The notes under the pieces are model-generated. The model did not search any database, was not told where the DNA came from, and saw only the letters and a list, made by a program, of their open reading frames with translations. Positions 12,273 through 14,963 of a stretch of DNA of 37,129 bases are shown here, one piece after another. Both the position numbers and the translations under genes were made by a program. Position 1 is the stretch's first letter. Each line of letters opens with the position of its first letter. Source of the stretch: Rhodospirillaceae bacterium (lineage in GTDB: Bacteria > Pseudomonadota > Gammaproteobacteria > Steroidobacterales > Rariloculaceae); NCBI GenBank assembly GCA_024640685.1, contig JAHEEN010000009.1, positions 1 through 37,129 of the forward strand, given 5' to 3'.

Positions 12273-13404
<1,132 letters not shown>

Positions 13405-13806
13405 CTAGCTCTTCGCTCCTAGATCCACGTTCGAGGCCCCGCTGCCCATCAGCAGGCCACCGAAAACGACGAGTTGCGCGGCGATAAATCCACCGAACAC
13501 CGCCGGCGCCGACAGCGGCCTGACGGTCGCAAATATCACGCCGAACAACACAGCCGTTAGCACCGTCTTGCCGACGACCCCAATCCGCGCTGAGCGAACG
13601 ACGGCTTCGGCGGAATCGCGCTCGCGCGGCACCGCCAGCCGAGCAGCCAAATACGCATTAGGCGCTACAGCGGTGATACCGCCAAGCAGCGCCGACATCG
13701 ATTCGACCGGGCCGTAGGCCACGCCCAGCACGACAGCGACGGCGACCGTTACGCCTGCTTGCGTCAGCAAGGTCAACGGCACGACGCGACTGTCGTCTAC
13801 TCGCAC
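13405..13806 (-). CDS. atpI: ATP synthase protein I (start re-assigned to GTG at 13806; 133 aa)
   Basis: Small membrane protein upstream of atpB: LTLLTQAGVTVAVAVVLGVAYGPVESMSALLGGITAVAPNAYLAAR. GTG at 13806 is preceded on the minus strand by AAGAGG at 5-nt spacing. The track start at 13902 would place an intrinsic terminator inside the CDS and overlap a -10 element. Confidence 0.78.
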   Translation of the reverse strand: MRVDDSRVVPLTLLTQAGVTVAVAVVLGVAYGPVESMSALLGGITAVAPNAYLAARLAVPRERDSAEAVVRSARIGVVGKTVLTAVLFGVIFATVRPLSAPAVFGGFIAAQLVVFGGLLMGSGASNVDLGAKS

Positions 13807-13836: not shown

Positions 13837-13856
13837 GTCGGCAAAAGGCTGCCGAC
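13837..13856 (-). other. Second perfect stem-loop in the atp leader
   Basis: Minus strand GTCGGCA-gccttt-TGCCGAC, 7-bp perfect stem directly after the T8 tract and upstream of the atpI Shine-Dalgarno. Confidence 0.6.
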
Positions 13857-13883
13857 AAAAAAAAGCCACGACGGCATCGTGGC
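13857..13883 (-). terminator. Intrinsic (Rho-independent) terminator / attenuator upstream of atpI
   Basis: Minus strand GCCACGA-TGCCG-TCGTGGC followed immediately by TTTTTTTT: 7-bp perfect stem, 5-nt loop, 8-T tract. Confidence 0.85.
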
Positions 13884-13900
13884 GCGTGTCCAGCGGCTGC

Positions 13901-13929
13901 ATTGTAAGCAGTCACCAGGTCGTAAGCAA
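13901..13929 (-). promoter_or_regulatory. Putative sigma70 promoter for the atp operon
   Basis: Minus strand TTGCTT (13929-13924), 17-nt spacer ACGACCTGGTGACTGCT, TACAAT (13906-13901), in the parB-atpI intergenic region. Predicted +1 near 13894. Confidence 0.65.
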
Positions 13930-14003: not shown

Positions 14004-14888
14004 TTACTTAATGTGGGCTAGGATGCCCTCGAGCTCGTCGGTCGTGTGATAGCGGATCACGACACGCCCGCCGCGCGCCCCGTACTCGATGCTGACGGCC
14101 GCACCGAGCTTTTCTGAAAGCTCGACCTCGAGCCGCTCGACGTCCGCATCGTTGCGCCCGGAGCGCCTGCGCTGGCCGCTCCGCGCACCGGTTGAGCCCG
14201 CGGACAGCTTGCGCACGGCGGCTTCGGTCTCGCGAACGCTCAAGCCCGAGCGCACGACGCGTCTTGCCAGCCCGACCATCAACTCGGGCGACGAGATGCC
14301 GAGCATCGCGCGCGCATGGCCCATGCCGATCTCGCGGTCCTCGAGCAACGTCTTGATCGGACTCGGCAGCTCGAGCAGTCGCAGTAGATTGGTCACAGCA
14401 GCCCGCGACCGGCCGACGGCGGCCGCCGCGGCTGCATGCGAGAGTCCGAACTTCTCTACGAGTTGATCCAGCGCACGCGCCTCCTCGAGCGGGTTTAGGT
14501 CCTCGCGCTGGATGTTCTCGATCAGCGCCATCGCAACGGCAGCCTCGTCGGGGATTTCGCGAACGACAGCCGGGATCGCATGCAGCCCGGCGAGCTGTGC
14601 GGCACGCCAGCGCCGCTCACCGGCAACGATCTCATAGTGCTGCTCGCCGCCGCGCTTGCCGAGCGGCCGCACGACAATCGGTTGCACGACGCCTTGCGCC
14701 TTGATCGACTCGGCGAGCTCGGCGATCGTCTCCTCGCGCATGTCCGAGCGGGGCTGATACTTGCCGCGCTCTAACAGGTCCACCGGGAGCTCCTTGAGCT
14801 CACCGGAGCCCGCGGGCTCGTCGCCAGCGGCTGTCGCGCTCGACAGCAACGCATCGAGGCCGCGCCCGAGACTTCTGCGTTTTGCCAT
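14004..14888 (-). CDS. parB: Chromosome partitioning protein ParB
   Basis: MAKRRSLGRGLDALLSS, ELPVDLLERGKYQPRSDM, VAGERRWRAAQLAG, LIENIQREDLNPLEEARAL. Start ATG at 14888 (294 aa); track ORF extended to 14948. Confidence 0.96.
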   Translation of the reverse strand: MAKRRSLGRGLDALLSSATAAGDEPAGSGELKELPVDLLERGKYQPRSDMREETIAELAESIKAQGVVQPIVVRPLGKRGGEQHYEIVAGERRWRAAQLAGLHAIPAVVREIPDEAAVAMALIENIQREDLNPLEEARALDQLVEKFGLSHAAAAAAVGRSRAAVTNLLRLLELPSPIKTLLEDREIGMGHARAMLGISSPELMVGLARRVVRSGLSVRETEAAVRKLSAGSTGARSGQRRRSGRNDADVERLEVELSEKLGAAVSIEYGARGGRVVIRYHTTDELEGILAHIK

Positions 14889-14963
14889 GTCGCGCTGCCG
14901 CTCCCGCTTGCTGCTTGGCGCGATTGTAGCGTAACGCGGAACGCTCACGAGGCGCCCGCCTCG

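Follow-up and report, generated by a model that had tools for sequence, protein, structure and literature searches.

The stretch of DNA that was analysed (37,129 nucleotides, hereafter the window) carries parA and parB next to an atp operon, and all of the features described below lie on its minus strand. The parB gene (14004-14948; Pfam ParB_N, HTH_ParB and ParB_C) is upstream of atpI (13405-13806; PF03899 ATP-synt_I, E 1.6e-12), which is followed by the next gene of the operon, atpB, for subunit a (12553-13401; PF00119). The gap between parB and atpI holds, in order of transcription, a putative promoter (13929-13901), an 11-nt leader, a hairpin, a tract of eight T residues and then atpI. The parB stop codon (14004) lies 74 nt before the -35 element, and the T tract is separated from the atpI start codon by 50 nt. 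The start of atpI was set at the GTG at 13806, which has AAGAGG as a ribosome-binding site upstream, and not at the ATG within the -10 element that was chosen by the ORF finder. The long open reading frame beginning at that ATG (13902), in frame with atpI, was rejected because its start codon lies upstream of the predicted transcription start and because the frame differs in one relative (L104).

A preliminary description of this DNA had proposed a promoter, TTGCTT-17-TACAAT, at 13929-13901 of the minus strand, and both its letters and its coordinates were found as claimed, with the -35 element at 13924-13929 and the -10 element at 13901-13906 (each read directly). The GC-rich discriminator GCAGCC (13895-13900) is followed by G at +1 and C at +2, and the spacing predicts transcription to start at G13894, as had also been proposed. 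The hexamers conform to the sigma-70 pattern (16-18 bp spacing), with 8/12 consensus matches and a spacer of 17, and this spacing is conserved: TTGNNT occurred 17 nt upstream of the -10 element in 10/10 of the family loci first aligned, and relatives have TANAAT at the corresponding position before the hairpin. A stricter promoter scan, requiring at least 9/12 matches, left out this promoter (8/12), which was the top 12-position match between 14020 and 13780. The 12-position scan of that interval returned no credible -10 element or promoter downstream of the terminator up to atpI in the window, in agreement with the earlier statement that no convincing promoter lies between the two. Similar GC-rich stretches stand at this position in most of the order's atp leaders and in other gammaproteobacterial atp promoters, and the discriminator is reminiscent of ppGpp-controlled promoters elsewhere. 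Judged by its conservation, the predicted promoter is a genuine one.

The canonical intrinsic terminator that had been placed at 13883-13857, ahead of atpI, was likewise confirmed in position and letters. Its hairpin, GCCACGAT-GCC-GTCGTGGC (13865-13883), has an 8-bp stem and a 3-nt loop and is conserved and mildly covarying; it is G+C-rich and is immediately followed by the T8 tract (13857-13864, read directly), the arrangement of an intrinsic (Rho-independent) terminator. The predicted folding energy was -11.3 kcal/mol, and 0/200 shuffled sequences folded as well. This anatomy leads us to infer that transcripts end there by intrinsic termination. A short leader RNA of ~38 nt (13857-13894), folded in silico, is predicted if transcription begins where the promoter spacing places it and stops with the last T. 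The hairpin begins only ~11 nt after the predicted start in the window's genus, and this was counted against reading the element as an attenuator. A second hairpin, GTCGGCA/GCCTTT/TGCCGAC (13837-13856), stands directly after the T tract with a perfect stem of 7-8 bp and no T tract of its own, and is only partly kept, within the genus only. Pairing of the terminator hairpin's loop with a downstream CGGCA was seen in the window's genus, and no conservation of this pairing was found.

The preliminary description had tied its proposal to conservation of the hairpin and the promoter in close relatives, and both turned out to be conserved. The genomes compared were mostly draft metagenome assemblies, and the relatives are phylogenetically non-independent. 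The parB gene was present in 21/22 family genomes, and the order -35 element, 17 nt, -10 element, GC-rich discriminator, hairpin, T tract and atpI was kept in nearly all readable junctions of the family. The leader ahead of the hairpin measures ~9-14 nt in four genera (g1, g2, g7 and g9) and ~32-35 nt in two (g5 and g10). Most family members have preserved the T tract, which is weak in genus g4. An alignment of 11 family hairpins of the longer-stem type had 94% of its cells paired, versus 20-66% in slid controls. Two pairs of this hairpin showed changes on both sides, and the covariation score of the alignment was reached by 2/500 shuffles; the covariation suggested for the family hairpin is modest, the sequences being related and not independent. 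Some family members depart from the common layout. Genus g8 (L109) retained the hairpin and lost the T tract, a natural test of the hairpin alone, and in L123, from a reduced 1.2 Mb genome (G007), the whole element is gone and the gap from parB to atpI is ~20-30 nt. One in-frame TGA was reported inside each of the ParB matches of three g10 genomes (G017, G019 and G020).

The same layout was found in seven further families (f3, f6, f7, f9, f10, part of f11 and part of f12), where the leaders are usually 25-50 nt long and the hairpin is larger. The base of the stem, GCCAC/GTGG, was identical in 24/24 aligned hairpins of these other families, an invariance that was partly selected for because the alignment anchors were picked by eye, and the interior of the hairpin varied in sequence and length. 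The tandem scan described below did not use the GCCAC motif, yet it recovered mostly identical stems. Because many families keep the stop signal, with the stem base frozen while the interior changes, the comparison suggests that the signal is under selection. The promoter was present and the terminator absent in families f2 and f4 and in several members of f11. Outside the order, the same type of promoter was matched by a strict pattern in 24/61 atp loci of Pseudomonas and other gammaproteobacteria, and a terminator between promoter and atpI was detected by the same test in 0/61 of the other gammaproteobacterial loci, a test that missed a related hairpin and T tract in L031. The promoters of those 24 loci have TATAAT followed by a GC-rich discriminator, as in this order. 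On the simplest reading of these distributions, the atp promoter would be ancestral and the terminator a later addition made within the order. In two loci, L031 and L181, atpI is preceded by a longer leader in which a distinct CCACAT/GTGTGG hairpin is followed by a T tract, perhaps an independent version of this arrangement.

A hairpin near the predicted 5' end could also serve to stabilise the atp mRNA or to adjust its translation, with little or no termination, and the g8 locus that keeps the hairpin without a T tract would suit such a role. A stabiliser does not need a T tract, however, and most lineages have maintained one directly behind the stem despite their very different genome base composition, so that we consider this alternative unlikely.

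In the window, as in most relatives, parB lies upstream and is oriented like atpI, and the parB-atpI gap of the window holds no other terminator-like site; both would be expected of an ordinary operon-boundary terminator that ends rsmG-parA-parB and leaves a strong atp promoter unaffected. This explanation is rendered improbable by what the element stays with. In Woeseiaceae-type genomes (L023:3424-4590; L215), parB and atp are parted by a convergent gene with an EAL domain, and several further f6 genomes have a long antisense ORF between parB and atp, of which the one tested (L215) encodes the EAL domain; the family names Woeseiaceae and Steroidobacteraceae were taken from few records, and L023 (Woeseiaceae) aligns with the f6 leaders. 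In these genomes, too, atpI is immediately preceded by the promoter, leader and terminator. The terminator is also always downstream of the promoter, despite 75-210 nt of free space from parB to the promoter, and it is absent from other gammaproteobacterial parB-atpI gaps. The earlier suggestion that the terminator stops read-through from parAB was therefore not upheld as its main role, because the element persists with atp where the EAL gene intervenes and parAB no longer enters atp.

Only ~20 nt separate the T tract from the atpI start in the Woeseiaceae-type leaders, leaving too little room for another promoter together with a ribosome-binding site, so that any atpI transcript there has to traverse the terminator unless an unrecognised promoter overlaps the hairpin. 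The promoter lies upstream of the terminator, no other promoter was seen between the terminator and atpI, and relatives keep this arrangement, so it is very probable that transcription of atp runs through the terminator. The proposal that ATP synthase expression runs through this site was borne out to that extent.

Searches for a regulatory mechanism within the leader gave little. Across 33 loci, and with few exceptions, the longest helix between the leader and the 5' arm of the terminator did not exceed what shuffled leaders gave; in L190 a helix of 7 bp was matched by 8% of shuffles, a single case not common to the other loci. Classical attenuation by alternative folds was not supported, given the absence of helix enrichment over shuffles and the presence of only 11 nt before the hairpin in the window's genus. 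Rfam 15 gave no match in the window at the gathering score, and with the leaders of 17 loci at E up to 1 it gave no relevant match, the one sub-threshold hit being unrelated. No conserved aptamer was found in the leader. An ATG with an open frame in three leaders (L195, L198 and L202) was absent from most of the 20 Woeseiaceae-type leaders inspected by eye, and indels shift the frame; on that reading by eye, a conserved leader peptide appears unlikely. The preliminary description's candidate attenuator stood in its anatomy and conservation, and for the regulated switch it had pictured no antiterminator, aptamer or, by eye, conserved upstream ORF was found. In the Woeseiaceae-type leaders L194, L208 and L215, the hairpin's inner 5' arm (GCCGCCGG) is nearly complementary to the Shine-Dalgarno region of atpI (CCGGAGGC), and could base-pair with this ribosome-binding site once polymerase has read through.

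The layout of a promoter followed by a terminator is also that of a small RNA gene, and the expected product, ~38 nt in the window's genus and longer where the leaders are longer, might be read as a tiny RNA that acts in trans, its promoter and terminator lying before atpI by coincidence. That reading appears very improbable, as no conserved single-stranded seed was found between families, just 11 nt precede the hairpin in the window's genus, and an Rfam match is absent.

Single elements and their combination differed in how they compared with chance. Lone terminator-like sites were not above expectation, with 1 found versus 1.4 expected in the 2 kb scanned. The tandem pattern (TTGNNN-17-TANAAT, followed within at most 110 nt by a G+C-rich stem of at least 5 bp and a T-rich tail) occurred exactly once in the 37-kb window. 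In 480,520 strand-bases of the relatives' loci the scan found 38 tandems, and 38/38 were atp leaders: 34 matched listed atp leaders and four more were read as atp leaders too (an alternative -10 element in L120, and L136, L142 and L174). No tandem was found outside the atp leaders in these strand-bases, and the reversed control also gave 0; this background is local and not genome-wide, because the loci were taken from around parB and atp. The motif GCCAC-N4-34-GTGGCNTTTTT was present in 0-4 copies per genome among 39 relatives, which rules out a generic dispersed repeat, and in the window's own genome it occurred three times, at the atp leader and on both strands of one bidirectional terminator. 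A strict class-wide pattern applied to 370 genomes gave one match, in the same order and at atp, a result that speaks to specificity and not to range, since the strict pattern fails to detect even the copy in the window. It is the tandem, and the fact that it is conserved, that stand above chance expectation, not the single elements. A chance juxtaposition, for which the ~1.4 lone terminator-like sites expected in the 2 kb might be cited, is hardly credible and is contradicted by the specificity and conservation of the tandem.

We favour the reading, with a probability of roughly 0.7, that the element is a promoter-proximal intrinsic terminator belonging to the leader of the atp operon, at which part of the polymerases would stop while the rest read through. 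As judged from anatomy and conservation, its identification as a promoter-proximal attenuator, in which promoter, terminator and atpI keep a conserved order, is well supported. RNA polymerase would start at the ancestral sigma-70 atp promoter, at the predicted G13894, and would transcribe the 11-nt leader and then the stable hairpin and U8. A fraction of the polymerases would halt at U8 and release the RNA of ~38 nt, and the remaining polymerases would read through to give the atpIBEFHAGDC mRNA. The terminator might act as a fixed throttle, or it might respond to the rate of elongation, to the levels of NTPs or to a trans-acting factor; these would be expected over a riboswitch-type fold because no conserved antiterminator, aptamer or leader peptide was found. 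The invariant stem base would fit a trans-acting factor. We infer that read-through into atp may be under conditional control. The more specific proposal of a conditional attenuator throughout the order, whose read-through follows the cell's energy or nucleotide state by way of elongation rate, the supply of UTP at the U tract or a dedicated RNA-binding factor recognising the GCCAC/GTGGC stem base, is at present a tentative and rather doubtful one.

Classical attenuators of the trp, his and pyrBI type have an intrinsic terminator between the promoter and the first gene and yield a short terminated leader RNA. The atp leader resembles them in the placement of its terminator and in the short RNA expected from it. 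It differs from them in having no alternative antiterminator helix and no conserved leader peptide seen by eye, and in having only 11 nt before the hairpin in the window's genus. Term-seq or similar mapping has located premature-termination sites in 5'UTRs that limit downstream expression, in E. coli (PMC7815308) and in P. aeruginosa (PMC8297930). The 3' ends described there lie in leaders, as is proposed here, whereas the evidence in the present case is evolutionary and not transcript mapping. The main text of PMC7815308 and of PMC8297930 does not mention atp genes among the premature-termination cases. A search of the full-text literature, in which subscription journals were largely outside coverage, for atp operon attenuation, leader termination, term-seq and conserved upstream RNA returned no description of such an element. 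The earlier remark that the well-studied atp operons are not known to have been described as attenuated in this way agrees with that search of full texts from few subscription journals, in which no previous account came to light of a bacterial atp operon preceded by a terminator in its own leader.

Few protein complexes are as important or as costly to a cell as ATP synthase. The atp leader of this order contributes a candidate leader RNA that has no Rfam family and no recognisable antiterminator, and control of ATP synthase by termination would be directly testable in cultured members of the order. If the conditional attenuator were true, ATP synthase output in these bacteria would be set at termination, and not at initiation alone.
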